Assembly: GCF_964275005.1 (NCBI RefSeq)
Contig: NC_092695.1
Location: 11,423,697 to 11,487,696, forward strand
DNA from: Diadema setosum
Lineage: Eukaryota > Echinodermata > Echinoidea > Diadematoida > Diadematidae
Length of the DNA: 64,000 bases
Direction: 5' to 3'
Part shown: positions 17,581-64,000 of the stretch, piece by piece
Layout: every line of letters begins with the position of its first letter
Numbering within the stretch: the stretch's first letter is position 1
Notes under the pieces: generated by a model
What the model was told of the DNA's origin: nothing
Databases searched by the model: none
The model's input: only the letters and a program-made list of their open reading frames with translations
Position numbers and translations under genes: made by a program

Positions 17581-18041
17581 ATCCACGCAGTGCGGAGATA
17601 CGAATAAATCATTACAAAAATGTACCTGATTCTACTTGCATTTCCTGTGTTATAGCGAGTGTGTGAGTACACACACGACGCTAATGGCTGTGTGGAAATT
17701 GTCATTATGCCTTCATGATCTTTAGAATTTGTTCCCAAGGCATCTTGCATGCTCAGTGGGTACCTTAATGTTAGCGTACATTAGGCCTTAGAGGCTGCCT
17801 TAAAAGAGTGAAAATGACATGAATTGCCTTAACTAAGTGGTCAAGTCATGGGTAGGTTACTCTAATCTACGTGCTGCTCTCTCGATCGGGCGGACTTCCC
17901 ATGTTCCTTCACACAGGGTCGACATTTATGAATTTTAAATATGAATGTGTTGATAGATGTGAGCTGATTAATTCATTGCTTCCATTTGTAATTGTTTTTA
18001 TTGTCTGCTTTGTTTCGTCTTTTCCTTGTTACAGGATAATA

Positions 18042-18112
18042 ATGCCCAAATCGTGTATTGCCTTCGGCTGCCGGAACCGTTTCACAAAGGGAAATGGAAT
18101 AATCTTTCACAG
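18042..18112 (+). CDS. THAP domain, first half (exon 1)
   Basis: ATGCCCAAATCG opens MPKSCIAFGCRNRFTKGNG and ends FH plus AG at a CACAG|GTAAGT donor (phase 2). Cys5 and Cys10 are the first two zinc ligands. Confidence 0.85.
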
Positions 18113-18560
18113 GTAAGTTCCTTGAAATAGGTCTAGATACCTCACTGTCAGAATGTTGTACACAGTTCAGGTTGGCTGGCATTTTTTTTTATTTCAACCA
18201 TGAGGCTGCTGAACATTGAGCACGATTGCTATTACAATTTGATTTCATAGTTCATACTTGCCTTCCGATCGCTACCAGTCCAGAGCATGGCAATTTTCCT
18301 TATTCACTCTCGGACCCAGAAATCACCTTTCACAGACTAGCAAGGAAAAAGCAGTCCATTTTTTGAAGGGAGGGGGAGAGGTGGTTCCTCAAGATATAAA
18401 CCTATCATCATAGTCGCCTCAGATCAGGTGAACCATCATCAGTATAAAAAATGATAGCTTGAGAAATTATGCTAGTTTACTTATTTATATTTTTATTTTG
18501 AGAAAATAGAAAAATTCTGGGAAGAATAAGATTCTGTCATAATTATTAAATGGCCCTTGA

Positions 18561-18650
18561 TTAACCCGTTGGAGACTAAGTACGAGTTAACTCGGGCTGG
18601 AGTCTGTGGGAAATGTGTGTTATAGCAGTATCAAATCGTCAACGGGTTAA
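18561..18650. mobile_element. 90 bp MITE with TTAACCCGTTG ends
   Basis: TTAACCCGTTGGAGACTAAG at the left and CGTCAACGGGTTAA at the right are inverted, in transposase intron 1. No coding potential. Confidence 0.6.
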
Positions 18651-18856
18651 TATGACATGGGGCTAGACACGTGACACATGGAGGTGAGACCAATCGGTTC
18701 AAGAGCCCACAACCATTGTTCTTTTAAATAGCTTTTATAAGCACTTGAGACCATCTTCATGTATTGTTAGTAGTGCTGGAATAGATTAGAGTGTATTTGT
18801 ATGAGATGTATAAAGATGAATAATTAATTTCTTTTGGTCTGGATTTCCCTTTTCAG

Positions 18857-18981
18857 GCTGCCTCTCAGCAAGCCAGCATTGCTGAAACAGTGGATGGTGA
18901 ATATCAGCAGAGACAATTTGAAGCCTGGTAAATACCATCATTTGTGCAGTGAACATTTTGTGAAGGAGCATTATGTGACAG
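18857..18981 (+). CDS. THAP domain, second half (exon 2)
   Basis: After a CCCTTTTCAG acceptor it reads LPLSKPALLKQWMVNISRDN and then KYHHLCSEHFVKEHYVTG. C-S-E-H supplies the last zinc ligands. The donor ACAG|GTGAGA leaves phase 1, which joins exon 3. Confidence 0.85.
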
Positions 18982-19687
18982 GTGAGAATTATATTGTAGT
19001 CTTTGTATGCCTTCAGGCATATTAACTTTAATAAAGAGCTTTTTCTGTAGAGCTGTAATGGCTTGCCTTTTTAAGTCAATTGAGGTCTAGTAGGTCTGGT
19101 CTATAAGCACTGGCATATTTAAAGTTTTGAAAAAAAAATAAGCAAATAATTTATGCAAGCCTGTTTTGTGGTTCAGATAATAAAGCAAGCTCAAAATTAG
19201 TTTAGGCTTATATCAAAAGACAATCAAAATGTTTTAAAGGCCCACCAACACCATAATTGCTGCAAAATAAAATTAAGATATCAGAAAAGCTATGTGAATG
19301 GGTGCCTTCAAATATCCCAACATATTGCAGTGATATGGCAGCACCCCTGCTTACATACATTGTTTGCTTCAAAAAAGACGAGCTATTTTAAAAGCAAACA
19401 GATTATTGTCATGATCAATCCACATACATTGTATTAGTGCTTAATCGATTAAGGGGATAATGTGTAAAAGGTATTTTGTAAACAAATTAACAGCCATGGA
19501 GCAATGTAGCCCTAGAAAATTGTAATTATTTGTGGTATACCCAAATTCCTAATGTGACTTAACTGGGGTATATGCCATCAAATATGGTTACAAATGAGGT
19601 TATACTTCAATGACAACATGTAGGGATTGTGATAGTGTACAATTGGCTTTGGTGAAACAAAGGTTTTGAGTTATTTGAGAAACAATT

Positions 19688-20040
19688 ATTTAAAGCCCAA
19701 GTATAGTTTTGGTAAATTAGACAAATTTTTTCGTCAGTCATTCAGAAAGTATTCTAATGTCACCCCAGACATCAGAAGACAACATCAAACCCACTGAAAA
19801 TTGTTAATAGGGACAAATTGTGACATTTATTGGAGCACATGTAGCGGTATGTACATTACCTATGGAAAATGTCGGGGTCCCCCCCCCCAACATTTTACAT
19901 TTTGGGTAATTTTTCAAAAATGAAAGTTTTAGAGCATACAATTTTCAGGGCATTGAAAGATCATATAGGTTACCTAAAAACACAATTTCAGAGAATTTCA
20001 TTTTTTACCATTTACCAACACTATACTGGGGCTTTAAATT
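19688..20040. mobile_element. 350 bp MITE with ATTTAAAGCCC ends
   Basis: ATTTAAAGCCCAAGTATAGT at the left faces ACTATACTGGGGCTTTAAAT at the right. It lies in transposase intron 2. The remainder of that intron (18982-20701) holds only AT-rich sequence and a 46-base poly(A) at 20165-20206. Confidence 0.7.
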
Positions 20041-20161
20041 ACAAAATATTACTGGAACTTCTGATTGAATTTTTTTTTTTTTTTTTGCTCTCTATTCAAT
20101 GAGTTTCATTTATATGCATAGGCTGCTTCACTAACTAAACTATTTAGAACATGCTTTAGAG

Positions 20162-20209
<48 letters not shown>

Positions 20210-20701
20210 AGTGTCTAAGAACTTTAAAGATGTATGCTGCTTTATATACACTTACAGTACCTTTGGTTTGAGTCTATTGTATTTACCAGTAGTCTTTTTA
20301 TTACGTAACACATCCCCCCCCCCCCCAACCCACCACCCAATCACCCCATACATGTAACCTTCCTTGTCTGTCTCTGACTCAAATACGGAATGTCCCTGGT
20401 TCATGTTCTTCAGAGCTGTTATATGCATCAGGTATCGAATTAGCTCCCTGTAGCAACACCATGTCATGATTTTCTGTACTATTTAGCTAACATACTGCAA
20501 TAACGAGAAAACATGAAGAACACCTATATTTGACAGCAAGCTGAAAACGTATGACAGTGACAATATTGAATGTACAGTACAGTTATCTTTTCAAACCTAA
20601 TGAAATCAATTCTGTAATGATGACACAACTGACCAGGGAGTGTCATGTGATTGATGTAGAAAATAATAATACACTATGCTATATCTTTAATTTCATTGCA
20701 G

Positions 20702-22533
20702 GGAAGCATCCAAGGGATGAGAAGGATGCTGGTATTTCTCATCAACATCTTCTACCCAGTGCTGTGCCAACTATCTGTCTGGGTCATCCACCCCATAAGC
20801 AAGCCAAAGCCCAGAAGCGACCTCCTCCAAAACAACGGTCTTCTGAAAGTAGTCCTCAGCCTCCCCCCAAAAAACGATATGTAATCTCAGTAGAACATGA
20901 CTACTCATCTGTGTCACTGGATGACAAGTTCAAGATGACAAGGCAGCAGCTTCAGGATGCTAAGAATAAACTACGAGTCGTCAAACAGAAAGTGAAAAGA
21001 AAAGACAAAAGGATAAGCTCCCTCTTGACAGAAGTGAAAGAACAAAAGCTGATCAGTCAAGACCAACATGACTTCCTTCAATTAAACTTTGGAGAAAATG
21101 CCTATCACCTCTTTGAGAATGAACTAAAAGCAAACAAAACAGACAAACATGGTCACCGGTATTCCGAAGAGCTGAAAAAGTTTGCTGTGACCCTTCACTT
21201 TTATAGCTCTCAGGCGTACGATTTCCTGCGAAGTTGCCTCCACCTTCCCCATCCGGCCACCATTCGACAGTGGAGCTGTGGCATAAATTGTCAGCCTGGA
21301 TTCCTTCAGGAGGTTTTTGGCCACTTGAAGGATATGGTAGCAAATGACCCAATGAAGGCACATTGTGTGCTTATGTTGGATGCGATGGCAATAAAGAAAG
21401 AGGTTGTTTTTGAACAGAAAACGTCGAGCTATGGTGGCTTTGTTGATTGTGGAAATTTTTTCGCAACAGACAGTGATAAACTTGCTACCGAAGCCCTAGT
21501 GTTCATGGTCGTTGGATTGACAAACAGTTGGAAATTTCCGGTCGCTTATTATTTGGTTGATCACTTACCTGGGACAGTGCAAGCAGAGATTATCAAACAA
21601 CTCCTTTGCTCTCTGTCTGAAGCAGGCATGCATGTACATGGAGTAGTATGTGATGGATCATATGCAAATCAAGCAACTGCAACATCATTGGGGTGCACCA
21701 TCACTGCAGAAGCAATAACCCCATATTTCAACCACCCACTGCATCCAGAGGAGAAGGTATATTTCATATTCGATGCTTGTCATCTAGTAAAACTAGTGAG
21801 GAATTGCTTAGCAACAATGGGTACCATCTACCATAACGGAGAGCCTATTTCATGGTCCTTCATTGAAAAACTTCACCAGGTGCAGCATAATGATAACCTC
21901 AATTTCTCAAACAAACTTAAGGCCAAGCACGTAGAGTGGCAGAAACACAAAATGAATGTAAATGTTGCTGTTCAAGCGTTAAGTTCGTCAGTAGGTGACG
22001 CGATCGACTTTTTGCGAGAAGACCTACATTTGCCACAATTTGAAGGAAGCCAAAAGACGACAGAGTTCATCCGTATCATTGACAAATTATTTGACTTTCT
22101 GAATTCCAAGTCATGTAAGGCGAAAGGCTACAAGAAACCAATGAATTTATCCAATCTGACAGCCACAAGTAATTGGCTGATGGAGACTGTAACCTACTTG
22201 TCCGAGTTGAGTGATAAGTTCGGAAATCCTCTCACAAAGGGCAGAAGGAAGACTGCTTGGCTTGGTTTCATGACCACGATTGAGTCTGTGGTACAAGTGT
22301 GTCGTGATCTACTGACTGCTCCTCATCCATTTGCGTATGTCTGTACCTACAAGATGTCACAGGATCATCTTGAGATGTTCTTCAGTCACGTCCGTCGCAC
22401 TGGTGGATGGAACAACAACCCGAATGCACTTCAATTTAAGTGGGCACTGCGTGCCATTCTTCAAAAGAACAGTATCGCTCCATCAAAAAATGCGAACGTC
22501 ACCGTAGAGGAACCATCAAACAGGTTGTTTGTG
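20702..22533 (+). CDS. P-element-type transposase core (exon 3, 5' part)
   Basis: The acceptor TTTCATTGCAG opens GKHPRDEKDAG. About 610 codons run without a stop until the transposon junction. A Pro/Lys-rich linker and a basic coiled coil (MTRQQLQDAKNKLRVVKQKV) precede the RNase-H-like core with the DHLEMFF acidic motif and GGWNNNP. Upstream in-frame codons back to 20551 are intron read-through. Confidence 0.88.
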
Positions 22534-24549
22534 CAGTGAAACCCCGTTATAATGAGGTCCGTGGGACTGGCGATATTACCTCGTTATAATTGGTACCTCG
22601 TTATAACCGTACGCGTCAAAAACAAGGAAAAACATAAGCACGACAACATATACCCGTCAATGAAATTCAAGAACATCCTTTGCATTTTTATTGCACAATT
22701 ATGGATCATTATTATTGAGAGAATAAAGGGAATATATTTGTGAATTAGACGAAATAGTAGGGGTTGAAATGACTTAATTCTTTATTTTTCTTCCAAAAGT
22801 CTCTTCGCATAATACCGGTAGTTGCACATTATGTTCTTGAGAAGTAGTATAGGCGTACAAATGTATATTATATTTGTGATTCTTTCTACACCTATCTCTT
22901 CCTCTTGTGTGGAATCATTCTGAAAGAATATTTTTTTGTGAATGAAACACAGTGTAAAATGACAATGAACAAAATCAGATTGTATAAAATGCGTTTGTTA
23001 AGTTTTTCTAAACACCAGCGCAAATAAAGTAACATACATCTGTTGTTTACCGTAACTTGGTATTTTTACGCTGTTGGTGCCCAGTGGGAATGCGATGATT
23101 TCATGAATCATTTCGGCTGTAATCTTATGCGATGTAGTTGTATGATCGTTGCACCCGAAGAGATTAAAAATGCGTTCTTTATTTTCTTCCGGAAATCTCT
23201 CCGCGTTTTGTACATCCATTCTTGAAAAATATGTGACAGGATTGAATTTGGAAGGTTGTGATCCTTTTTTTTTTTTTTATGCAAATCTGTACCTCGTAGA
23301 CCATTCTAAAATAAAGACAAATCTTCATTATGAAATGCAGTGTTATAATTGTGATAATGATCAAACCCAGATCTATTCAAACTGTTCAACGCGTTTGTTT
23401 CTTTTTTCTGACCACCGATTAAGTAGCTTAACATGTGTTATTCAACTATTCTTACGCTGCTGTCAACCAGCGAGATCGCGATGATTTCAGAGTAGCATAC
23501 ATACGTCGTTTACCGTAACTTGCGAGGTATTTTATGCTGTTGGTGCCCAGCGGAAATGCGATGATTTCATGAATCATTTCGGCTGTAATCTTATACAATG
23601 TATGATCGTTGCATCCGAAGGGATTGAATATGTGTTATTTTCTTCCGAAAATCTCTTCACGTTTTGTACATCCATTCTTGAAAAATATGCGACAGGATTG
23701 AGTTTGGAAGGTTGTGATCCTTTTTTCCACAAATCTGTACCTCGCAGACCATTCTGAAAGAAAGAAAAATCTTCATTGTGAAATGCGGTGTTAAAATTGT
23801 GATAATGAACAAACCCATATCTATTCAAATTGTTTTATGCATTTGTTTCTTTTTCTGAACACCGATTAAGTAGCTTAACATGCGTTATTCAACAATTTTT
23901 ACGCTACTGTCACCCGGCGAGATTGCGATTTCATTAATTTTTTCGGCTATAATCATACACACTCATATTTGCTAACCAGCAGAAGAACTGGAAGTCGGAA
24001 CTAAAAATGGAAAGGATAAAGGTTATGATGATGAGTTGCACACACATTCCAATTTTCCATTTTTTGGCCACGAGTGTCGCTACATGAAAAGTTTTTGAAT
24101 GCGTTATCTTTTTTTTTTTTTCTCATTGCGCTGTGATCTGACCTAATATCACGCACGCGTATCACGCGAAAAAGAAAATCGAATTTTTATGTTCAATAAT
24201 TTAGTAGGAACATTGGAAGGTATTCCTGTGTCTTATCGCATGGTTTCGAAGAAAACATGGAAGGAACGGTTCTCTGCAAAACAGGAAAAAGACATGGATT
24301 GCGTGAATTTGGTTTTCAATGTTTCGTTTGTTGCGTGTTTGAAAGCAGCAAATCAAGAAATGGAACCTCGTTGTATCTGATCAAATTGCTTATGTTTTTC
24401 TTTATCATGATACACCGAAATTTTCCTCTCGTTATAAACCGGTTCATTCTAGCATAGGTTTACACGCAAAGGAAAATGGGACCGACGCGATCACCTCGTT
24501 GTAAGCGGTTCCTCGTTAAAACCAAACTCGTTATAACAGGGTTTCACTG
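22534..24549. mobile_element. 2.0 kb pogo/Tigger-like non-autonomous element inside the transposase exon
   Basis: The left end CAGTGAAACCCCGTTATAAT and right end GTTATAACAGGGTTTCACTG are inverted. The right flank is TA (24550-24551) and the left flank TG (22532-22533), one change from a TA duplication. Subterminal ACCTCGTTATAA motifs cluster at both ends (22570-22605 and 24424-24535). There is no recognisable transposase. The interior is a degenerate tandem of about 450 bp units. Confidence 0.88.
22930..23960. repeat. Degenerate tandem repeat of ~450 bp inside the pogo-like element
   Basis: TTTACCGTAACTTG, GGTGCCCAG.GGAAATGCGATG and GAATCATTTCGGCTGTAATC occur at about 23047 and again at 23511. 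CACCGATTAAGTAGCTTAAC occurs at about 23413 and 23861. The flanking units are partial. Confidence 0.78.
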
Positions 24550-24874
24550 TACCACAGCAGTCAGCTGCACTTCGTCATAATAACCCAGACATGCAGAAGT
24601 TTGCAAAGCTTCTTGACAATCCTTCTGAGTTTCATGATCACATTTGCCATTATGTAGCTGGATATGTTAGCAGGCATGTCAGGGATGATTGCAAATGCTC
24701 TCAGTGTTGTATGGCTCTGCACAAAAACTCATCTACATCAGATGCCATCCCAGATCATCCCTACTCTGCTGATGGTTCTGTTGGAGCATTCACTGGGCGC
24801 AAGGATCGAGGTGAACTGGTCAAACCAGCAGATGATGTGTACAAAATCGTGAAAACGACTGACAGAATCTTCAG
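24550..24874 (+). CDS. Transposase exon continuation after the insertion
   Basis: Joining 22533 to 24552, allowing for the TA duplication, gives NRLFV then PQQSAALRHNN without a frame change. It continues LDNPSEFHDHICHYVAGYVS and the CKCSQCCMALH cysteine cluster. It ends IF plus AG at TTCAG|GTACAA (phase 2). Confidence 0.82.
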
Positions 24875-26008
24875 GTACAATATTTGACTAACTTTGTTGT
24901 TTATGTTTTTTGGTTAGTTTCATTTTACAGTTCACCTTACCTAGCCGGGGGGGGGACGGGGGGGGGGGGGGGGGCGGGCTACTTCCACGACCAATTTGCC
25001 CACACTGGCAACACAACATTTTTTGACCGTGCTGATCGCTGACTTTTTACTTTGTATCATCCATCGTCCATACACAATTTCAGAATTCTTTTGCACCATT
25101 TCTGTCCCAAATTCAATTCCGTTTGCTTTATATGGTAGCACTACATGTATGATGTAGGTGGGGGATTAAAAACTTCTATACAGAATTTGAAACTCCTTGA
25201 TTTTTGGTTTCATCTGCTAGAGCTACATGAGGTGTAGTACATGTACACTAAACTTTATTTTAAATTTTGTGTGTGGTATTTTCTTTAATTTATGCAAAAT
25301 TTATATTTCAAAAAAATCACAAAATTTAAAATTGCGTGAATTTTGATGGTGAATATCATAACATCACATCATTGATGTGCTGGTTAAAAATCAGAATGGT
25401 ATTTCTTGACCTAAAAGCTATCCAAATTTTAACTATCAGGAACAATGAGTCTAAAACAAATTTCTTTATCTCTAGCAGGTAGATCTGCTACATTAAATTA
25501 TTACATAACTTTTCCTCTGAGGATTGTTTCCCCTGTTCTCTTCCTCTTAGATTCTACCTGTTCATATTTGTATTTATTTTATTTGTAGTTATCAAATTTG
25601 AATTTGTAGTTATCAAATTTGAATATTTCATTGATTTGAGAGAAAATTATATTGCCAGTATTTCATTTATTTTTGCAGAAATTAAATGTTAGGTTTTCTG
25701 TTGCAGGGCATAGAAGAAATATAAATATCCTGTCTGGGAGCATAAACTCTGTTACTTAAAATTTTCTGTGTGCGGAAGTGTGCATTGCGAGTGCCTTAGC
25801 GCTCACACTTGATGGGTGGGGTCCAGAGGCGAAGTCCTGGCAGGGGTCTAAGGGGAATTATTATTTTTTTAGATTATTATTTTCAGATTTTTTTAGGAGA
25901 CTTAATTTGTTTTCTGGGAACGACGTACCCGTTGATTTCTAGGCCCTGTTATGTCGTTTATAAGCAATATTTCATGTGTCCTTTTTGCTTCTCTTTCATA
26001 CTATGCAG

Positions 26009-26313
26009 GAAGGCCTTGGTAAGCCATGGACCTTTGAAAACATCAAAAAAAAAAAATTATTCATGAGGTCCAAGGAGAGGTTATGTCTTCAGTTAGAGAC
26101 CAGGTGTTTATGGACCTTGCAGATCATTTCTTTGAGCAGAACCTGGAAAGTGAAGACGATCACGGAAATCAACTGGTCAAGAAAATTTCTGGACTTTTCA
26201 TCAAAACTCTCCTGTATCACCATGGTTGGATTTTCACTGACCGCTTTGTAAAGCACAACGAAGCCTCTTCACGACACTTGCTCACCAAGAAAGTGCTGTT
26301 TCTGGGTGAATAG
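26009..26313 (+). CDS. Transposase last exon, frame broken at a poly(A) run
   Basis: A strong acceptor (TTCATACTATGCAG) lies at 26008. From 26083 the frame reads SSVRDQVFMDLADHFFEQNL and continues to HLLTKKVLFLGE and a stop. This is an amphipathic C-terminal segment like those ending THAP9-like proteins. The incoming phase reads the wrong frame unless one A is removed from the 12-A run at 26045-26056. Confidence 0.6.
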
Positions 26314-26475: not shown

Positions 26476-28045
26476 TTAACCCTAATATAATCAGGCTATT
26501 TCTTATTTCTGGGGGAGGGGGGCATTATGGCCCCCTATAGATCTTGACTGCAGATCACGGAATCGTTGCGAAAACTTGCATGCTCATAGAGCTTTACTAC
26601 AAGTTTGTATTGTTATGTCTTTGAAAAATACTTTTTTTCTATTTTTAAATCATTATGCATATTTATTCATAAAATCATTTTCTTTGTGTATAACTCACAT
26701 ATAGCTCGCAGAATGTTGTATGGTGAAAATAATTTGTTGGGACATTTCTAAAAATTATCTACCAAAAATTTGCCGTAACAGAATTGACTTCTTCTGTACT
26801 TTATCTTTTCGTGAATTTCTTAGGTATTCCTTTGTTTTTATACCCCCGCCAAACGAAGTTTGAAGGGGGTATATAGGAATCAGCGGACGGTCGGGCGGTC
26901 GGGTGGTCGGTCGGGCGGTCGGTCCGTTGCAAATCTTGCGTCGCGAACTACTTCCTCAGTTTTCAACCGATTCCCATAAAACTTGGCACAGATGTGTGCC
27001 TTGGGTTGTAGATGTGCAAGACGTATTTTTTGACAGTACCCAAAAGTACGTTGCCATGGTAACTGCATATTATGGGCAAAAATGGGTACAAATCTTGCGT
27101 CGCAAACTCCTCCCACAGTTTTTGATCAATTTTTATGAAATTAGGTACAGATGTTCCTCTGAATATGTTAATGTGCAAGACACATATTTCCGCAGTGGCA
27201 AAAAGTGCGTTGCCATGGTAACGGCATGTTATTGGTAAAATATAGGGCAAAATGCTTCATGACAAAACTGCTTCATCAGTGTTCTTCCAATTCTCATGGA
27301 ATTCATATTGAATGTTTGTCTTAGGATATAGGTCAGCATGACACATTTCTTGACAGTGACAAAAAGTATGTTGCCATGGTAACAGCTCACATATTATGAG
27401 CCAAAATGATGGAAAATTTTGTGTTGCAAACTACTTCCTCAGTTTTTGCCCAATTTCCATGAAACTTGGTACAGATGTGTGCCTTTGGTTGTAGATGTGC
27501 AAGACGCATTTTTCGACAGTACCCAAAAGTACGTTGCCATGGTAACGGCATATTAATGGCAGAAGATCAAGGAAAGATCTTGCGGATTTAACTACTTCCT
27601 CAGTTTTTTGACCAAAGCTTATGAAATGTTGTTTTGACCAAAGGTTATGAAATGTTGTTTGGCGGGGGTATAACCAGTCGCTGTAGCAACATTTCTAGTT
27701 TTACCTGTTATTTTTCTTTTTTTCAATGAAATTTATTGAGGACATTTTTGCAATCAGAAACAGCATAAAATTAGTTCAGTAAAAGTTAAAATAATCACAA
27801 AGTTATGAATTGTGGTTGAAAACACGATTTGTATTGAAATTGTACATGAAACCACGACTTTGAGCGATCTTTGGTGTGACATGCAAGTACAAAATGTTGC
27901 ATACATGTAACTTCAGAACCACATGCCAGAGGTCACAAATATGGTCTCAAAAGATGCGGGAGACTTGAAAGTAAATAGTGAGTGACACGGTCAAAAACTT
28001 TCGTGCAGCGGAATGGTTGCAAAATTTGTTTAGGGGGAGCTATTA
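26476..28045. mobile_element. Degenerate copy of the TTAACCCTA element, interrupted
   Basis: The left part (TTAACCCTAATATAATC...GATCTTGACTGCAGATCACG) matches 30264 onward. The right part (ATATGGTCTCAAAAGATGCGGGAGACTTG) matches 30901-30926. The middle is replaced by the 26839-27700 element. Confidence 0.7.
26839..27700. mobile_element. TACCCCCGCCAAACGAAG element with internal ~160 bp tandem units
   Basis: Ends are ATACCCCCGCCAAACGAAGT and GGCGGGGGTATAACCAGTCG...ACATTTCTAGTT. Inside, units containing CTTGCGTCGC.AACT.CTTCCTCAGTTTT...GTTGCCATGGTAAC start near 26935, 27098, 27257, 27422 and, in part, 27579. The CGGTCGGGCGGTCGG run at 26885-26925 resembles the (GGAC)n run of the TGACC elements. 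Confidence 0.8.
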
Positions 28046-46345: not shown

Positions 46346-46464
46346 CGAACTCTCACTCATTATTGTCAATATTGAGAGTGAGACTCACTCATCATGCTCA
46401 TTTTGGTCCTTTCTCATTCTAAAACTTTAGATCCTATTTCATTTGCATGCATTTCTATTGATGT

Positions 46465-48006
46465 GTGTCATGCAAGCATGTTCATGAGAAGCAACTTCAA
46501 CAGCTGAACCCGTCAAAGGCTAGTGGACCAGATGAGATACCACCTAGGCTATATAAACTTATAGCCCATGAGATTGCACCAGCCTTGTCCTTCCTCTACC
46601 AACAAAGCTATGACAGTGGTGTGATTCCGCCTCAATGGAAGCAAGCATTTGTCACGCCAATCCACAAATCTGGTGACAGAAGTGATCCCTCCAACTATCG
46701 TCCAATTTCCTTAACCTGTATATCCTGCAAAGTCATGGAACATATCATGCTGAGTCACTTATCCAAGCACATAGCAGTAAACAACATCTTTGCAGACTCT
46801 CAGCATGGTTTTAGACAAGGCTTATCAACTACAACACAACTCACTTCTGCTGTCAATGACTGGTCTCAGACACTCCAAAATCGCAGCCAATCTGATGTCA
46901 TCTTTCTAGACTTCCAGAAAGCCTTTGACAGGGTGCCACATGAGCGACTTTCTATTAAGCTACGCTATTATGGCATTACTGGAGAGTCTCTCAACTGGAT
47001 ATGTGCTTTCTTGGCTGATAGGTCACAAGCTGTAGTCGTTGATGGAACCAAATCATCGTGGAAGGAGGTCTCATCAGGAGTTCCGCAGGGTTCTGTTATT
47101 GGCCCTACCCTCTTTCTACTGTTCATCAACGACATCCAGGATGGCATGTCGTCACCCATCCGTCTGTATGCTGATGACTGTGTGACTTATCGGGAAATTA
47201 GGTCAGAAGATGACTACAACACTCTACAACAAGATCTCCAGACACTATCATTATGGTCATCCAAGTGGCTCATAAATTTCAACATCAAGAAGTGCGGAGT
47301 AATGTCAATCACTCGAAAACGCAATCCTAAAATCTACAAATACCACCTTCAGAATGGTGTCATTCCAAGAGTTACGGAGTATAAATACCTTGGAGTAACT
47401 GTAACACCTGACCTACGCTGGAATACACACTGTCAAAACATCAGGTGCAGGGCCAGCAAGACCCTGGGACTTATACGCCGAACATTGCCATCATGCTCAA
47501 AGGAAGTGAAGTGTAGAGCCTACACAGCATTGGTTAGGCCTAAACTGGAGTATGCCTCTGAGGTTTGGAACCCTCACACCTTGACGTCCATTAGCAGCCT
47601 CGAACAAGTGCAGAAGGCAGCAGCCCGGTTTGTTGCTGGTGACTACAGATGGTCTACATCATCTACCCGTCTGGTGTCGGCACACGGATGGAACACGTTA
47701 CACCACCGGCGACTCCTGGACCAATGTTCACTTTTTTACAAAATCCACTATGGAGTGGTAAGCCTACCATTGCCCTCAGCGGTTACCCCTGCAACCTACT
47801 ATGGAAGGAACGATCATGACCTCAAGTTCAACATACCCAAGACAACTATTGATGCATTCAAGTACTCATTCTTTCCAAGGACAATTTGGATCTGGAACCG
47901 CCTGCCTAGTCAAGTTGTACATGCCACCACCATAACAACATTCAGAGAAGCTGCTCTCCCATGTATTACAACCTTGCAGCCTTCTTCTGGATCACTCATC
48001 CTTTAA
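46465..48006 (+). CDS. Non-LTR retrotransposon reverse transcriptase, 5'-truncated ORF2
   Basis: Intact 513-codon frame. RT signatures appear in order: HKSGDRSDPSNYRPISLT (about residues 70-87), HGFRQGLSTTTQL, FLDFQKAFDRVPH (motif A), SSGVPQGSVIGPTLFLLFIN, and YADDC (catalytic motif C). The C-terminal WIWNRLPSQVV...TFREAAL tail follows. The apurinic endonuclease domain is absent, typical of incomplete target-primed reverse transcription. The family is in the CR1/Jockey range; the clade is not resolved. Having no stop or frameshift over 1.5 kb suggests a recent insertion. The first Met is only the first in frame; recognisable RT sequence begins near 46500 (PSKASGPDEIP). Confidence 0.92.
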   Translation: MSCKHVHEKQLQQLNPSKASGPDEIPPRLYKLIAHEIAPALSFLYQQSYDSGVIPPQWKQAFVTPIHKSGDRSDPSNYRPISLTCISCKVMEHIMLSHLSKHIAVNNIFADSQHGFRQGLSTTTQLTSAVNDWSQTLQNRSQSDVIFLDFQKAFDRVPHERLSIKLRYYGITGESLNWICAFLADRSQAVVVDGTKSSWKEVSSGVPQGSVIGPTLFLLFINDIQDGMSSPIRLYADDCVTYREIRSEDDYNTLQQDLQTLSLWSSKWLINFNIKKCGVMSITRKRNPKIYKYHLQNGVIPRVTEYKYLGVTVTPDLRWNTHCQNIRCRASKTLGLIRRTLPSCSKEVKCRAYTALVRPKLEYASEVWNPHTLTSISSLEQVQKAAARFVAGDYRWSTSSTRLVSAHGWNTLHHRRLLDQCSLFYKIHYGVVSLPLPSAVTPATYYGRNDHDLKFNIPKTTIDAFKYSFFPRTIWIWNRLPSQVVHATTITTFREAALPCITTLQPSSGSLIL

Positions 48007-53684: not shown

Positions 53685-56600
53685 TATTAGTAGTAGTATA
53701 GTAGTTTTAGTGGTGATGGTGGTGTTAGCGGTTGTGGTAAAAGCTACGGGCATCAGTGGTAGTAGTAGTGGCAGTGGTGGTGATGGTGGACGTATAGGGC
53801 CTAGCTTTACACATTGTAGAAGTATAGCTTTATTGATATAATTATCTCTTAAGTAGTACATCATTGCCATATATTCATATTCCTGACATACTGTATGTGG
53901 TTAGACAATACACTCTATTGTGTCGACCATCGGTATTGCAACTTTTGAATTTTCGTTATCGATAATGTGAATCTCGACACTCACCAATGTTTTAGACTTA
54001 TCAGATGCACATAATTTCAAAAGCTTCAGAAAGCCAGCAAACTTTCATATATTTTGGAACTGTGTCCAGTATCACGGTACATTGTTGAGATTTGAATACA
54101 GAAAGATATAGTTTGATATCAATTTGTTTTGGTGGAGTGACGAGCCATGCGCTAAATTAACAAAAATACTAGTACTGAGTATGTGGTCACTACCGTGACT
54201 CTAGGTCACGTCGTACGAGGTCGTTGCTGTCAGTTATATGCTGCGACGACACCAGGTGAACGAACAAAATTATGGACACAGCGGTTGCCTTCTTTTTGTA
54301 TCCAGTGATTACACGATGCTAGACAATATTATTCTTCCAGAAATCTAGGACAGGGTCAGGACATGACAGTTATATTGTTGATGGCATATGTGCACCACCT
54401 CTGTAAAACAGCGCTGTTACGATAACAGTGCTGAGTAGGGTCATCCCTCCGTTGAAGATCTATTTTATGTAATATATCTTTGTTTGTATATCTTTTAATG
54501 ACGGAAATACAATACAATACAATACAATACAATACAATACAATACAATACAACCTGTCCCATGGTCTGGTTTAGTGAATCTGTGAGAAAAGTCCACAAAT
54601 CAACATGATTACGAGCCTCATATTTAATACCCATGAGGGGGTCTCAAAAGGAGGAAAAATGAAATTCAGTGTCGTGAATATCATGTCATTTTATTAGCGT
54701 ATTATATATACTTCATTTTGAAGATATGAGTCTGACTTTCTGGTTAAATGTCATAGCGTACCAAAGCTTTTCTTCACACGGATTGTCTTCGTCAGGAAAC
54801 GCAACTGTTTATTCATACTTTTCCAGGTTTTGTTTGTCTGTTTGCTTGCTTGCTCTTGCTTTTTATGTGCGTTTGTTGTAAGACTATGGACGCGAAGTGT
54901 GCATTTAAGAATCTGTCAAACCCAAATTCATATTCATTGGATGTATAGTTGCTTTCCAGGTCGTGACTATTCAGCATATATTATGATGGATGCTGTATAG
55001 TAATGAGCATGCTCAGTATCTTGGTGATAAGTCGTACAGTGCATTAAAGCTCTGATCCGGCCATTGTTATGAACGAGATTTACTTAATCCGTGGATCCCT
55101 GCCGCTTTTGAACGAGCCGTTTCACAAAATACCTCCGATCCTACCAGTCAACTTTGTCACTATGCCAAAAACAACGGTATGCTTTAAGACGGAAATATAT
55201 TTCAAATGATAGTTCCGACATGGTTACGCCCTTTGGATTCAAATATAATAGTTATGTCTTTGTGGAGATAACCCAATGTCTATACACCTGACCACTCCTC
55301 GAAGATGTATATTACGAAAGGACTAGATTACGTCATTGTCGACCCCACTTCTCCACGTTGCACTTCCTCGAGACTTTTGGGTTATTTTCCAAAGGATTAT
55401 GTCTTCAGGAAAGGCAGAAAAGGTCAAGAGGCGATTATCCCTTAAACACCCTGAGAAGCCATGCAGTAAGCAATCCGGTGATATACGGTGCACGGTTATA
55501 ATTACTGTGCGAAGATTCAAAAGATGGATACTCTTTCCAAAATTTTCTAACTTTTAGGCTGACTTCGTCGTTATTGTCAGGTTGAATTACAAAAAAAAAG
55601 AAAAAAAGAAAACAAGTGTCCCCTTCGATATGGCCACGTATTATATTTTCCCGATTACTCATGATATCCACAGACTGCACAAACCTTTCCCACTTGCTAA
55701 GGATAAGGATTATTCACAATCACGAATGCATACACAACACGTTTGTGCCTCATTATAGTGTCAAAACTTAGCAGATCGCATCGCTTCCTTTGACCCAAGA
55801 GGGTGCATTAAGAAGTGCCTGAAGTGATGTTCCCAGTATAGAGTTTAATACAGAGAATAAAATCATGAACAATCAGATCATGTTCAGTTGTTCCTCTTCG
55901 TAACGCGAAAGGCGAGCTTATTCTTTTGCAACATACATATCACATTAACCCGAGTTGAGCACACCAGGGACAATAGTCTTAAACAAGCAACAGAGTAACA
56001 TTCACCCCATTATTCTACTACGGGAAATGTTCTTTCTAAGCACTCATTGTCTAAACGCAACCAGAAAATACACGTTATTACTACTGTTATTGTTGTCATT
56101 GTGGTAATTGTGACAATAATGATAATGCTAAAAATTGTGAAGATAATGCAAGATATTCAACAATGAAAATAAGAGTATAATCTTTGTCCATAGCATTATA
56201 GGCCTACCATAATTATCATCATTATCCTAATCCCCATCGTTATCCTCTTCGATGTCGTCGACATGAATACCATCAAGAATAGTTATGAGACATTAATCGC
56301 ACTATTTTCTCATGTCAGGCATTTCATCCACCGTGTTTCTCGTGGATGGTCCCGCCCCGCATGAGGGACGAGTGGAGATTGACTACGGAGGGTACCGAGG
56401 CTGCGTGTGTGACGATCAATGGGACATGAAGGCTGCACGTGTGGTGTGTCGGCAACTCGGCTTCGCTTCGGCAGTTCGTATCGGGGTCGGAAAGACCCGG
56501 CGCTACCCGACAGCAATGTGCAAACGATGTCGCTTGACAGGGGTCAGGTGTAACGGGGACGAAGAGGCGCTGTCGCTGTGCTCACATCGGAAATCTTCGG

Positions 56601-59600
56601 AAACGACCTGTGACACCGGAAGTCAGTCCGTTGTGGATGTGACATGTTCAGCCAAAGGAGGTAGGATAGCCTAATTTCTAATGTCAGTAATGTTTATGAT
56701 ATTTATGATTAAGGTTTGGCCTCAATTGTGTATAGTGTTCATACACAATGTCCTACCTTTACTGTCTGTAGTAATTTCAAGTAAAATGCCCTCTCTTTAA
56801 TGTCTGTACTGGATCTTTCAGCAGTGCCTATACTTTCTCTTTATGACGCTTATCTTTTTTTTTTCTTTTTTTTTTTTTAAATATAGTTCGCCTGATTGGA
56901 GGGGCCATCCCACAAGAGGGCAGTGTGGAGGTGTACAGCGGCGATCAATGGGGTACGGTGTGCGATGACGGCTGGGGCCTTCAAGAGGCGACCGTCGTTT
57001 GTCGTCAGCTTGGCTACACCGCGGCGACGGCCGCCAAGAGCAACGCGCACTTCGGCGAGAATCATGGCGTCGACATCCTTCTCGACGATGTGACTTGCCG
57101 CGGTGAGGAGGCCGATTTGTACCACTGTGCGCACAGGAGATGGGGGCAGCACGACTGCAAACACTCCGAAGATGCTGGCGTGGTTTGTGCCGACGACTCG
57201 ACGTCAGGTGAGGTTAACATTGTATTGTCTTTCCTGAGAATTATCACATGGGAGAAAGGTTCTCCTTGAAGATGAAAGGAAGTCTTTATCAGATTTGTGT
57301 GAGATCGGCAAGGATGTAAATGTGGAAGTGTGACATGGTGTTTTAGGAAAAGCGAAATTGCGATTATACATTAGAAGGACTGAGAGAGCATTGCTGAGAG
57401 CGAACTAATGTATAAAAAGAAGACCGGGGATAAGATAGAGACGTTTGGGTTGAATGAATCAGTGGAACAGCTGGCTGGCAAGGGAGAATGTATAGTGCGA
57501 TGATATGGGCATGTGTTGAGGAAGGATGGGGATAAAGTGCTAGAGCTTAAAGTAAATGAGCCACGAAAGCGATCAGGACGACTAAACAAAATGTGGAAGA
57601 GCTCGAGAAGGTTGGCTTGAGAATGGAGGGTGCCCCAGATCGGGCCAGGTGGTGAGAAGGTGTGAGAGTGCGTGGAGTAAATGCGACCAGCTCATTGTAT
57701 GAGAAAGACCCGGAGCAAAACTGGATGATGGTGATAATGATGACGATGACGATGACGATGATGATACTACGACATTCATGGTTTTGCATGAAATGTTCTT
57801 TTTATGCAGTTTGAATGTATTTATTTGAAAGCTATATAATGTGGTTGATCTCATGCGTAACTTCATGCAGTAAAAAGCCACCCAATGCTCGGGTTGGCTT
57901 GGAAAAACAGAGTAGAGTCAAACAAGCAGAATGATAGTTATTTAATGAAATTCATGATATTTAAGAAGGAATTTATGCAATTTCAGATATTCTCGTGATT
58001 TCAAGTAACAGTTCTATCGGTCGCAATTTCATGTGCAAAAAAATTAGATGTCAGTTTTGTATTCATAGGTTCGGAAATGAATCGATAAATAATCTTGCTG
58101 CTATAGGTAGGTATACGCGACACGGAGAGAAAGAAACAGTAATATAGGATGCGGTATACAAAGCGTTTTTCATGTGCTGGGCGCTCAGGTTAACACCTTT
58201 CATGTTTCCCTGAAAATTTATTATCGGACTCGGAGGAAAATGAGAAAATTTTGATGAGACTAAATTAAATTAAAAAATAACTAAACTAAATTATACGTAC
58301 GGACAGTCGGATACCAACACCCTATTTCAATTGATATCCTTTTGTACACTCACTCGTAACTTATCAAGTTTTCGATACGAAGTAAGATTATGTTTTACAG
58401 ACTTTCATATTTGATTTTATTTCTCTCCGAGTCTAAATTTCGAGTCGAGAAAGCTCTCCGAAAATGTACATGGCTTTGTTGATGATCTCTTAAAGACTTT
58501 TCATGTAAATATATGTGTGTGTGCGGTTTTTTTTTTTTTTTTGCTATATTTCCTCTCTATCTCTTTGTCATATCTATACTATTCATTTATCCATCTTCAT
58601 ACAGTGTAATCATACATCTATCTCAAACACACTTTCTCTATCGCTCTCTGTGTAGTGGTGGGAGCCGTACGACTCACAGGAGGTTACTTACCCTATGTTG
58701 GTCGACTGGAAGTTTACCGGTACGGGGAGTGGGGAACGGTTTGCAATCAGAGCTGGCATGAGTCAAATAGTCAACAGGTAAGTGAAAAAAAAAAAAAAAT
58801 CCATCCCAAAACAACACAAATCAATGACTCAGCTGTTCGCCATTTTACCTGGATGTGCGAGAAATAAATAACACAACATATCCTTGGAGTAGGAATTACG
58901 TATCCGTCTAAATAACCCAAATGATGGTACACTAAATCGTACCTTTCGAAAACAATGCAAATTCATGATACCATCCCATGGGCGTCACCAGGGGGGTGCA
59001 CTGGGTGCGAACGCACCCCCCTTCAGAACCTAAAAAAAAAAAAAAAAAAAAAAAAACACGCTTCAGTCTGCGAGCGACCTCAACGCCGGACGCTAAATAA
59101 TAATGTTCTTTTTTATTTTTCTTCTTATTTTTTTTTTTCATTTTGCACCTGGAGGAAAAAACAAAACAAAACAAAACAAAAAAACAAAAACAAAAACAGA
59201 AAACAAAAACAATCGCACCCCGGCTCTGGCAGCACTGATGCTATACAATGTCATATCAGTGTTTACTATCTATCGATCGTACTGTATGATACGTAAGGTA
59301 TATTTCATTCATTGTGCAACGGATTATCAATTCAGAAAATGCAAAAGCTCCGTCGCATGGGGGGGGGGGGGGGGGAGATACCCCGCCCACACCCTCCCCC
59401 GTTATAGGTCTCCAATCAGTGGCGTAACTGGGGGGGGGGGGGGGCACAAAAAAAAAAACACGCTTCAGTCTGCGAGCGACCTCAACGCCGGACGCTAAAT
59501 AATAATGTTCTTTTTTATTTTTCTTCTTATTTTTTTTTATTTTGCACCAGGAGGAAAAAACAAAACAAAACAAAACAAAAAAACAAAAACAAAAACAGAA

Positions 59601-62600: not shown

Positions 62601-63875
62601 TTAGTCATGCTAACTCATAGTCGACAACTTTGTCACTTAATTTTAAAGATGTACCGGAGCGGACGTTATGGATACAATCCAGATAAGTGGTTTTTACAAA
62701 GAAATAACCAAAAAAAAAAAAATAGTAATTACCATCTTAATGTTTCGTCCAGGTCTGTAATCAGTTGGGATACCGCTATGCAGGGAAAGGAGACTCTAAC
62801 ACCTGGGCTCTCAATATCACCTCGGACAATAATAGCCCAGTTTACCTGAGTAACGTCGATTGCGAAGAAGGAATCTCATTGGCCGAATGTCATCATGACC
62901 TTTGGCAAGACAACGACTGCACGCATGCGCAGGATGTATTTGTCACGTGCGATCGACAACCAGGTAACTCACCTCCTTCGTTTGCCTAATAATGATACAA
63001 ATAATTCTTCTTCAGTCATATTACAATAAAGCACATTGTTCTGAACACAGACAATGTGAACAAGTGTCTTTACATCGACAGTGGGAACGCATTTCATAGT
63101 CAGTGATAGTTGTAAAGGTTCATATTATGCGTCATCTTACCATAGACGTGAATCTGTAACAATACAGAAACCTAGCACTCATATCGCTGTGTAAAGAGTC
63201 CACGGACAGAAAATGTCTCATTTAAAAACATAAAACACTTGATTACGTTTACATGGTACAACAAGACACCAAAATTTAATGTCTAAGTTGCATGCTTTCT
63301 GGTATGTTGCGAAATTGAAATTATCGAAAAATCTAAGCTGACATGAAGACAGGAAGAACTATTTGACATGCTGTGCTCACAGCAAGCACATTTTATTTTT
63401 GTTATAGTTACAAATTGCAATGCGCCGAGGAGTACCTTAGGTGATCACGCAAAGGTGAGGGGGAAGAAATCTCAATGCTGGACATACGAAATAACCTTTG
63501 TCACGTCTTCTTTTGATACTATGACGCCATTGGTTTGCATTGCAGGTGACGAAGGTGAAGTTCGGCTCCAGAACAGCCGAACACCAAACGACGGTCTAGT
63601 TGAGGTGTATCGCTCAGGTCGATGGGGCAGCGTGCTGGGCGATACATGGGATATCGTCGATGCGGATGTCGTCTGTCGACAGCTCGGCTATCGAGGCGCT
63701 CTGGAAGCGGTAGTCGATCAGCGATTATCGCTAGACTCCGCCGACGCAACGCTCGTTGGTTCTGTAGACTGTGATGGTTCGGAAAGTCAGCTCCTTCACT
63801 GCAAACACACGACCATGCCGTCATGGGGAGGGGCGCGAGCGGGACAAGCAGGCGTGGTGTGCGCAGACGACCAGG
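53357..63875 (+). CDS. Secreted or membrane SRCR-domain protein, first six coding exons (continues right)
   Basis: Exons are 53357-53423, 56319-56660, 56887-57207, 58656-58777, 62753-62963 and 63546-63875, all GT/AG with matching phases. Exon 1 encodes a signal peptide. Four scavenger-receptor cysteine-rich domains follow: domain 1 in exon 2, domain 2 in exon 3, domain 3 split between exons 4 and 5, and domain 4 in exon 6. Most domain exons are phase 1-1, the arrangement that allows domain shuffling. SRCR proteins bind microbial and endogenous ligands and are greatly expanded in echinoderms, so an immune or recognition role is likely but not shown. Domain 4 has lost two conserved cysteines. 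The right end of the gene, and any transmembrane or other domains, are outside the window. Confidence 0.9.
53424..56318. other. SRCR gene intron 1
   Basis: Contains (AGC/AGT)n at 53653-53790 and (AATAC)n at 54507-54552. No further exon was recognised; some AT-rich stretches near 56060-56230 are simple-sequence-like. Confidence 0.6.
56319..56660 (+). CDS. SRCR gene exon 2, SRCR domain 1
   Basis: 342 nt. FLVDGPAPHEGRVEIDYGGY, then CVCDDQWDMKAARVVCRQLG, ending SVVDVTC. Nine cysteines, including an unusual CKRC pair (MCKRCRLTGVRC) in place of the usual loop, so disulfide pairing is non-standard. Acceptor CATGTCAG, donor GGAG|GTAGGA. Confidence 0.88.
56887..57207 (+). CDS. SRCR gene exon 3, SRCR domain 2
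   Basis: 321 nt. VRLIGGAIPQEGSVEVYSGD, then WGTVCDDGWG, ATVVCRQLGY, LDDVTCRG, DLYHCAHRRWGQHDC and AGVVCADD. All six group A cysteines are present. This exon is noticeably GC-rich relative to its introns. Confidence 0.95.
57360..57770 (+). mobile_element. Decayed LINE 3' fragment in SRCR intron 3
   Basis: Broken frames read KTGDKIETFGLNES, then YGHVLRKDGDKVLELKVNEP, RKRSGRLNKMWK. The GHVLR.D...R..GR....W pattern is the C-terminal region of RTE/Jockey-type polyproteins. Stops interrupt it. It ends in a (GATGAC)n tail, about 57730-57765. Confidence 0.7.
57771..58655. other. Rest of SRCR intron 3
   Basis: AT-rich, with a poly(T) run at 58528-58542. No repeat family or exon recognised. Confidence 0.5.
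58656..58777 (+). CDS. SRCR gene exon 4, SRCR domain 3 N-terminal half
   Basis: 122 nt. VRLTGGYLPYVGRLEVYRYG, EWGTVCNQSWHESNSQQ, then donor CAACAG|GTAAGT at phase 0. The second half lies 4 kb downstream. Confidence 0.9.
59056..59620. repeat. Direct repeat pair of ~160 bp
   Basis: ACACGCTTCAGTCTGCGAGC...GACGCTAAATAATAATGTTC...GGAGGAAAAAACAAAACAAA occurs at 59056 and again at 59457. The two copies are almost identical and separated by about 240 bp containing a CAGTGGCGTAACTGGGG block. Confidence 0.88.
59772..60337. mobile_element. AAAGGACAAGTTCACC foldback MITE, third copy
   Basis: TTAAAGGACAAGTTCACCTT faces GGTGAACTTGTCCTTTAA. Internal arms match the copy at 13382-13933, in inverted order. 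It is nested in the composite insertion. Confidence 0.9.
60795..62060. repeat. Satellite-like array, about seven units of 130-350 bp
   Basis: Each unit carries GTGCGCCCCC...TTAATTTCCAAAGCGAAAA, then TAGCTACAAACGGCAGTTTT, GACTGTAAAATGTCAAAATT, TTCAAGCTCGCTCGC and AATCGTTATGCCATTCTCCT, then GCCAGTAATTGCCAGCAGTT. Units begin near 60820, 61000, 61385, 61555, 61715, 61825 (partial) and 61960. Some units are shortened, and one carries an insertion with a (TTCAA)n tract. Confidence 0.88.
62080..62390. repeat. Two-unit repeat with GGGTATCCCCCTCC
   Basis: CCCTCCGTGGGACGGGTATC...CTCACACCGTCACATAATGT and CCTACCGTGGGAGGGGGTAT...CTCACACCGTCACATAATGT are two diverged copies about 190 bp apart, at the right end of the composite insertion. 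Confidence 0.75.
62753..62963 (+). CDS. SRCR gene exon 5, SRCR domain 3 C-terminal half
   Basis: 211 nt. VCNQLGYRYAGKGDSNTW, YLSNVDCEEGISLAECHHDL, then WQDNDCTHAQDVFVTC. Acceptor TTTCGTCCAG, donor CCAG|GTAACT (phase 1). With exon 4 it restores six conserved cysteines. Confidence 0.9.
62964..63545. other. SRCR gene intron 5
   Basis: No repeat family or exon recognised. The open frame from 63368 into exon 6 is intron read-through; the TTTGCATTGCAG acceptor at 63545 sets the exon boundary. Confidence 0.6.
63546..63875 (+). CDS. SRCR gene exon 6, SRCR domain 4
   Basis: 330 nt. VRLQNSRTPNDGLVEVYRSG, RWGSVLGDTWDIVDADVVCR, SVDCDGSESQLLHCKH, then QAGVVCADD. The first conserved cysteine (WGTVCDD) is replaced (WGSVLGD), and the one normally before the last segment is missing, leaving four. 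Confidence 0.93.
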
Positions 63876-64000
63876 GTATGATCTATCACTCTGCTTAGTT
63901 CATTCTATATGCGACTCATTATTCGCTACATTCAGCACATTATGGCAAATCATTATTATTTCTTTCAACCAGCTACCTGCTTTAAGGAACAGGCTCACAA

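Follow-up and report, generated by a model that had tools for sequence, protein, structure and literature searches.

In the sea urchin Diadema setosum, a non-autonomous DNA transposon of the Tigger/pogo superfamily has very probably inserted at a TA dinucleotide in a THAP9/P-type transposase gene, within its large exon; it probably did so recently, as an old copy that moved, and the encoded protein is predicted to be truncated. The evidence comprises an element with defined ends, target copies of which one is a base off, a multicopy family, and an empty site that is contiguous in homologues and paralogues. The nested insertion is an ordinary event, of which this is a clean instance, and the inserted element is of a common non-coding kind. 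Positions are those of the window, the whole 64,000-nucleotide stretch of contig NC_092695.1 that was analysed.

The interrupted gene

Pfam matches in the gene (PF05485, PF12017, PF21787, PF21788 and PF21789) identify it as THAP9/P-type. Its exons are arranged as follows:

18042..18112, + strand: predicted exon 1, start of the THAP domain (MPKSCIAFGC...), donor CAG/GTAAGT at 18113, from reading frame and splice score
18857..18981, + strand: predicted exon 2, remainder of the THAP domain (PF05485, E 3.4e-06)
20702..22533, + strand: exon 3 before the insertion, with Tnp_P_element HTH, RNase H N-terminal part, GTP-binding insertion domain and RNase H C-terminal part
24552..24874, + strand: exon 3 after the insertion, with the start of the C-terminal domain, YVAGYV, a Cys cluster and 107 open codons
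26009..26313, + strand: predicted exon 4, end of the gene

The start of exon 3 at 20702 was set by the frame and the acceptor. Its left part is open for 610 codons from 20704, in agreement with the figure of about 610 given in an earlier, sequence-only reading of the window, and its right part for 107 codons from 24552. The assembly contains a single copy of the interrupted exon.

By alignment, the catalytic triad D230/D303/E531 of Drosophila transposase (6p5a) corresponds to residues 226/317/557 of the 610-residue piece encoded from 20704. The insertion point lies in the linker from RNase H to the C-terminal domain, which in the Drosophila transposase is described as flexible and disordered (PMC7776569). 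All three catalytic residues and the four Pfam domains of exon 3 are located upstream of it; hence the catalytic exon is cut and the catalytic domain is intact. The first reading, of a catalytic exon cut and a transposase knocked out, is right in that the exon and its reading frame are interrupted; the knock-out is at most putative, as what the insertion takes away lies wholly downstream of RNase H. The C-terminal domain does not follow RNase H in one frame: its DNA is present from 24552 and is severed by the insertion. The translation of 24552-24874 gave no match in the Pfam copy used; close homologues carry precomputed PF22824.

In exon 4 the entering frame meets a stop just past an A homopolymer (26045-26056), and a different frame, beginning at 26062, is conserved at 55-71% identity across six paralogous loci. 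This break is either a mutation or an assembly error, so that the gene may carry damage unrelated to the insertion.

No terminal inverted repeats with an 8-bp target duplication, as expected of a mobile P element, were found at the locus. A search for 8-bp duplications with one mismatch allowed (8-18 kb versus 26.3-38 kb) gave one weak A-rich pair, and five shuffles gave 2, 0, 0, 0 and 0. An inverted-repeat search seeded with 10-mers (12-18 kb versus 26.3-34 kb) yielded no convincing pair, most of the matches being simple repeats. With 3 mismatches or fewer, the end of zebrafish Pdre2 matched 30 times in the window, where 19.4 matches would be expected, and 3 of 100 shuffles reached 30; six Pdre2-like end pairs around the gene were rejected, their flanking bases matching at 4 of 8 positions at most. 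As far as inspected, the four closest paralogues do not form a P element bounded by ends of its own either: they lie on four contigs, and their homology extends over more than 8 kb and includes satellite DNA.

The inserted element and its family

The following features were annotated at the insertion:

22532..22533, no strand: left target copy, TG where TA is expected (one base off)
22534..24549, no strand: DNA transposon of Tigger/pogo-like type, non-autonomous, 2,016 bp, without recognisable coding capacity
22534..22556, + strand: left terminal inverted repeat, containing the in-frame stop TGA at 22537-22539
24527..24549, - strand: right terminal inverted repeat
24550..24551, no strand: right target copy, TA

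The element is exactly 2,016 bp long (22534-24549) and, with both target copies, fills 22532..24551; the ends, target copies and size originally proposed for an element inside a THAP9/P-element-like exon were confirmed. Its inverted ends are CAGTGAAACC, and the arms 22531-22556 and 24527-24552 form a 26-nt inverted repeat that is 88% complementary. The 19-mer CAGTGAAACCCCGTTATAA is found at just two sites in the window, which are the ends of the element (up to 3 mismatches; mean of 0.02 in 100 shuffles). Internally, the element carries a duplication of approximately 450 bp (about 23028-23482 and 23491-23929). None of its open reading frames exceeds 112 aa from stop to stop, and ten ORFs compared with Pfam gave no match at the gathering score; by these searches the DDE_1 transposase of an autonomous member is absent.

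Exact matches to the 19-bp end number 685 in the genome of 913 Mb, with 342 in forward and 343 in reverse orientation, the same sequence read backwards giving 0 in a control; this implies a minimum of about 340 copies. From 29 other loci, 23 full-length copies were retained after removal of six that were duplicates or did not have both ends. TA is present on both sides in 21 of these 23, compared with TA on the right and TG on the left here. The full-length copies measure 1.8-3.1 kb and thus exceed the classical MITE size. No exact copy of the 19-mer was found in viral contigs, nor was a relative of P0001, the closest homologue of the gene.

The affiliation of the family was indicated by an element of the same genome (L058/L062), flanked by TA on both sides, with an open frame of 550 residues containing DDE_1, HTH_Tnp_Tc5 and CENP-B_N. 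Its ends differ from those of the inserted element at 3 of 19 bases, and the subterminal CGTTATAA repeats are similar in the two. The pogo-like character attributed to the ends at the outset is thus borne out by the related ends of a Tigger-type element whose transposase frame is open. Among six DDE_1 loci examined this was the only one with related ends; none were seen at the other five within the 3 kb inspected. A TA target, at the level of the family, and short terminal inverted repeats in common with an open-frame pogo-type element are what is expected of a non-autonomous Tigger/pogo member.

The uninterrupted site in homologues and paralogues

Joining of the flanks, with the element and one target copy removed, gave 717 codons with 0 stops, an in-frame fusion as predicted from the letters, and the same protein resulted whether the TG or the TA copy was kept. 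The sequence-only reading was to be abandoned if no homologue spanned both halves, and this check upheld it. Fourteen of 42 homologues (P0001-P0009 and P0011-P0015) cross the junction with no gap and no insert within 10 residues on each side, and the nine closest of the 42 are all contiguous over it. P0001 shows 81% identity over the entire residues 400-717. The nearest named THAP9 is that of Holothuria leucospilota; named matches among the best 120 of 1,010 listed in an RT search include Lytechinus pictus, Amphiura filiformis and Nematostella vectensis. In the genome analysed five paralogues, in a count covering the closer ones, are stop-free and insert-free at the junction: L032, L033 and L035 (712 aa) and L038 and L040 (669 aa).

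Misplacement of the insert from another locus during assembly is extremely improbable. Misjoins commonly arise from families that, like this one, number hundreds of copies, but the break coincides exactly with both element ends and with a target of TA type, and the two frames rejoin with single-base precision. This copy also stands apart from the others found, the next best reaching 85% (40 scored of 1,298 candidates).

The open frame on either side of the element would also be expected if the element were removed as an intron, with a near-normal protein still produced. An acceptor-like site at 24558 (95th percentile) together with a donor at 22531 would restore the frame minus three residues, and Introners are a known example of introns that derive from transposons and bear terminal inverted repeats (PMC9860276). 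Such splicing is considered very unlikely. Sixteen donors and 13 acceptors lie no more than about 100 bp from the ends; scored with generic tables and combined, they gave 25 in-frame stop-free pairs, from five donors, none of them a good pair: the best in-frame donor scored -5.2 (50th percentile of all GT in 18,001-26,300) and the 22531 donor -6.9 (32nd), compared with 8.6, 7.5 and -0.2 for the predicted donors of the gene. The stronger donors nearby, at 22557 (1.7) and 22524 (-2.1), gave no open in-frame pair. Moreover, the five stop-free paralogues are intron-free at the junction.

Age of the insertion

The age of the insertion is unsettled, as the open exon and the divergence of the element disagree. 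The element diverges by 9-12% from each of the 23 copies and has a terminal branch of 0.065 substitutions per site in a tree with them; 57 of 1,815 bases are unique, being found in none of the 23, as are 9 indel runs. Over its first 500 bp the nearest relative is 86% identical (best among 40 scored of 1,013 candidates). In simulations of neutral decay, the exon stayed open in 0 of 1,500 runs at a divergence of 0.065 and in 6% at 0.01. The open exon suggests about 1% of neutral decay or less.

The explanation that fits best is an old copy recently moved by cut-and-paste. The exon, open to the left and to the right of the element, would mark the insertion as recent, at no more than about 1% neutral divergence, and most of the excess divergence of the element from its family would have been gained before the jump, because cut-and-paste leaves no sibling. 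The recent date first assigned to the insertion thus agrees with the open exon but not with the element's own divergence. The mobilising enzyme, acting in trans, was most likely a related Tigger transposase encoded elsewhere in this genome.

The predicted product

Translation would end at the TGA of the inverted repeat (NRLFVQ-stop), giving a protein of 677 aa in total that would keep the THAP domain, the HTH, RNase H with the GTP-binding insert, and the triad, without the C-terminal domain.

The openness of the exon could alternatively be due to selection for a C-terminally shortened DNA-binding protein, made from a transposase by the insertion, like the 66-kDa P repressor of Drosophila. The triad and upstream domains are intact, neutral decay of both since insertion would, at the divergence of the element, have left the exon far less open than it is, and the Drosophila repressor likewise does not have the C-terminal third (PMC7776569). 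We consider this unlikely. The 107 codons beyond the stop are open as well, which is not improbable alone (0.07 at 6.5% divergence, 0.68 at 1%), and the locus has no detected P-type ends. Comparison with P0001 at outgroup-conserved columns hinted at constraint that is relaxed rather than strict. Of 181 columns that do not vary among the outgroup rows (8 or more of the 12 having a residue), the gene alone differs at 9 and P0001 alone at 2 (p 0.065), the gene-only changes including R562H and R566T beside the catalytic Glu; at 349 looser columns there are 18 versus 8 lone differences (p 0.076). That a truncated 677-residue THAP-DNA-binding protein of repressor type has been kept open by selection after an insertion dating back several per cent of divergence, and could silence the stop-free P-type paralogues, is quite doubtful; if true, one transposon would have turned another into a repressor.

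Taken as an ordinary event, the nested insertion is chiefly of use for annotation: a truncated THAP9 may be predicted at this locus by gene finders, and the genome carries several stop-free P-type paralogues besides the interrupted gene. An old-looking element in an undamaged exon is a clear, testable point on whether non-coding pogo copies still jump when old. Should the truncated protein or a spliced product be used, the locus would show how, in nature, one DNA transposon can shape the regulator of another.

Comparison with known systems

The gene resembles THAP9/P-element transposases (Drosophila 6p5a; zebrafish Pdre2) in its THAP domain, Tnp_P_element HTH, split RNase H with GTP-binding domain, and triad; it differs in that the protein would end after RNase H and in that no P-type inverted ends with an 8-bp duplication were found.

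In pogo families except Fot, TA duplications are usual, and in most the terminal inverted repeats are up to 40 bp long (PMC7386202). The element is similar to Tigger/pogo (IS630-Tc1-mariner) in its TA target, short inverted repeats, and ends and subterminal repeats as in the DDE_1/CENP-B_N element of the genome. It is distinguished by having no transposase frame, by its internal repeats of about 450 bp, and by a family of 1.8-3.1 kb.

Like Introners, the element is a DNA transposon with inverted repeats in an exon. Introner families have medians of 30-654 nt (PMC9860276), whereas the element here is 2 kb with no good donor found, and an intron location of family copies is only hypothetical.

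The 66-kDa P repressor of Drosophila arises by intron retention (PMC7776569). The C-terminal part of the transposase is missing in both cases; here, in contrast, the stop is provided by the inverted repeat of the insertion, and the repressor role is putative.

The gene and its interruption

A THAP9/P-type transposase gene was located on the + strand, between approximately 18042 and 26313 of the window, which itself spans C11:11423697-11487696. Its exons, inferred from frame and splice signals, and the element that breaks the third of them are as follows.

18042-18112, + strand: exon 1
18857-18981, + strand: exon 2
20702-24874, + strand: exon 3, interrupted
22534-24549, 2,016 bp: element breaking exon 3, with inverted ends CAGTGAAACCCCGTTATAA..., TG before and TA after
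26009-26313, + strand: exon 4

Once the element and one target copy were taken out, 717 codons with zero stops were obtained, and the joined protein was identical whichever target copy (TG or TA) was kept. In exon 4 the entering frame hits a stop just past an A homopolymer; a different downstream frame is conserved at 55-71% in six paralogous loci. This frame break may be either a mutation or an assembly error.

Residues 400-717 of the joined protein, used as query at E <= 0.001, matched 42 homologues. Each of the first nine matches covered 100% of the query, and homologue P0001 was 81% identical over the entire stretch. The 10 residues on either side of the junction were free of gaps and insertions in 14 homologues (P0001-P0009 and P0011-P0015); the remaining 28 were variable in the junction linker, or had no linker (P0027 and P0042).

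The left part of exon 3 (20704-22533) was searched as DNA against the genome (912.7 Mb, 102 contigs) and gave 11 matches: one identical, which is the window itself, four at 71-72% and six at 65-70%. No second, uninterrupted copy of the gene was found in the assembly by this search. Five paralogues, all stop-free, matched the joined protein in a single piece, L032, L033 and L035 over residues 2-716 (66%) and L038 and L040 over residues 38-715 (52%), and all read ...LFRPHRTGALRHNN... or its equivalent across the junction with no insert. L034 and L036 were matched piecewise, the junction-spanning piece being unbroken in both; the matches to L037 and L039 end short of the junction. The open join and the contiguity of homologues and paralogues over it bear out the sequence-only reading that one exon has been split by an element.

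Searches on both sides of the window copy turned up no P-type ends with an 8-bp duplication, so it was filed simply as a THAP9/P-type gene that may or may not be mobile. The four nearest paralogues (L041-L044, with L048-L055, on contigs C3, C6, C8 and C2) lie within dispersed repeats, whose pieces are pairwise 93-99% identical, the longest being 8.4 kb at 96%. At least one of these repeats carries a satellite array with a spacing of about 96 bp. A stop-free stretch of 712 codons is kept in three of the four copies.

The element and its family

The element contains no ORF longer than 112 amino acids (stop to stop), and ten of its ORFs gave no Pfam match at gathering score. Its 19-bp end occurs in the genome 342 times in forward and 343 times in reverse orientation, and the control pattern, read backwards, 0 times; many of the first 100 sites listed lie in pairs that face each other at a distance of about 2 kb. 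Of 29 other loci, six were dropped and the remainder yielded 23 distinct full-length copies. TA flanks both sides in 21 of the 23; the other two, L003 and L014, have one altered flank each, like the window copy. Full-length copies measure 1.8-3.1 kb, differences apparently due in part to the number of internal repeats of about 450 bp, which were noted in the window element, L005 and L009.

DDE_1 transposases are common in this genome (93 matches). One of the six loci examined proved to be a 3.76-kb element with CAGTGCACTCCCGTTATAACGAA at both ends; no such end pair was present in the 3 kb inspected at the other five.

C9:19639448-19643211 (L058 49-3001 and L062 1-811): Tigger-type element, its two ends matching and flanked by TA, with an open frame

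Its 24-bp arms differ by one mismatch, TA lies on either side, CGTTATAA repeats are subterminal, and the open frame of 550 residues carries DDE_1, HTH_Tnp_Tc5 and CENP-B_N domains. The end of the window element differs from that of this Tigger-type element at 3 of 19 bases. The window element, whose own ORFs are without match, was therefore filed, from sequence comparison, as a putative non-autonomous Tigger/pogo-like copy; the related ends back the earlier description of its ends as pogo-like.

Consequences for the transposase

All Pfam matches in the exon fall in its left part (P-element HTH, RNase H N, GTP-binding insertion and RNase H C); the right part gave none. The 610-residue left piece aligns to the Drosophila P transposase structure 6p5a (E 5.8e-24), whose catalytic residues D230, D303 and E531, as numbered in PMC7776569, correspond to residues 226, 317 and 557. 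The insertion point lies directly after residue 610, beyond the triad; hence the catalytic core is spared, and what is cut is the linker that leads on to the C-terminal domain. The exon is cut, as had been claimed of a "catalytic exon", but its catalytic core is not. PMC7776569 describes the Drosophila linker as flexible and disordered.

Translation is predicted to enter the inverted repeat and end as V-Q-stop, giving a product of 677 residues. Because the Drosophila C-terminal domain touches transposon and target DNA (PMC7776569), the truncated protein has probably lost transposase activity.

The element might instead be removed as an intron. Scored with generic splice tables, the sites within about 100 bp of the element ends give 25 donor/acceptor pairs that are in frame and stop-free; between them these pairs use five donors. 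Acceptor 24558 scores well, at the 95th percentile of the gene's AG sites, but all five donors score at or below the median of all GT, compared with 8.6, 7.5 and -0.2 for the gene's inferred real donors; the stronger nearby donors, 22557 (1.7) and 22524 (-2.1), form no open in-frame pair. As no in-frame donor beats the GT median, a spliced product is unlikely.

Age of the insertion

Neutral decay of the exon was simulated with 1,500 runs per step and an assumed 0.096 frame-breaking indels per substitution. The share of runs in which the exon stayed clear of stops and frame breaks fell from 24% at 0.005 substitutions per site to 6% at 0.01 and 0.5% at 0.02; no run kept it intact at 0.03, 0.045 or 0.065. 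With stops alone counted, it was open in 43% at 0.01 and 0.7% at 0.065.

The element is 88-91% identical to each of the 23 copies, gaps left out, and its terminal branch is 0.065. Fifty-seven of 1,815 compared bases are absent from all other copies; of the 55 changes that are strictly unique, 8 are CpG transitions, and unique indel runs number 9. Of 1,013 candidate relatives of its first 500 bp, 40 were scored, and the closest of these was 86% identical. A younger subfamily comprises 12 copies, 97% identical among themselves.

The two clocks disagree: the open exon favors a recent insertion, as first proposed, and the element branch does not. We prefer the account in which an old copy would have moved into the exon by cut-and-paste. 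Such a move leaves no sibling behind, so the branch is only an upper bound on the insertion age. The other reading is that the gene remained under some selection after the insertion, which would keep the exon open. At 181 columns invariant in the outgroups (residue present in at least 8 of 12 rows), however, lone differences number 9 in the window copy and 2 in P0001 (binomial p 0.065). The corresponding counts at 349 looser columns are 18 and 8 (p 0.076), and every one of the 12 outgroups is closer to P0001 than to the window copy, by 6-26 residues. These excesses, below significance, hint against strict constraint.

Other features of the window

At 46462-48006 a reverse transcriptase frame is open for 514 codons (RVT_1, E 1.1e-36); its nearest protein among the best 120 of 1,010 matches is 71% identical, and it looks like a LINE-type element. 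SRCR-domain exons of a scavenger-receptor-type gene lie at 56297-57269 and 63347-63898, where three open frames were inspected and the first and the last of them match Pfam SRCR. The stretch 26841-27700, edged by ACCCCCGCCAAAC and its inverse and holding several GTTGCCATGGTAAC repeats, looks like a further repeat element.

Comparison with known systems

The nested insertion is well defined, real and ordinary in kind, and the sequence-only reading was in the main correct. What stands out is where the gene is cut, that the inverted repeat itself provides the stop, and that the two clocks disagree. The insertion is not reported in the accessible parts of the literature on the P element and THAP9, pogo, nested transposons, introners and truncated transposases, including PMC7325037, PMC7386202, PMC9860276, PMC10983969, PMC13228809 and PMC7776569. 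For a sea cucumber genome, a preprint lists three THAP9 orthologues, one of them possibly partial or truncated (PMC13228809).
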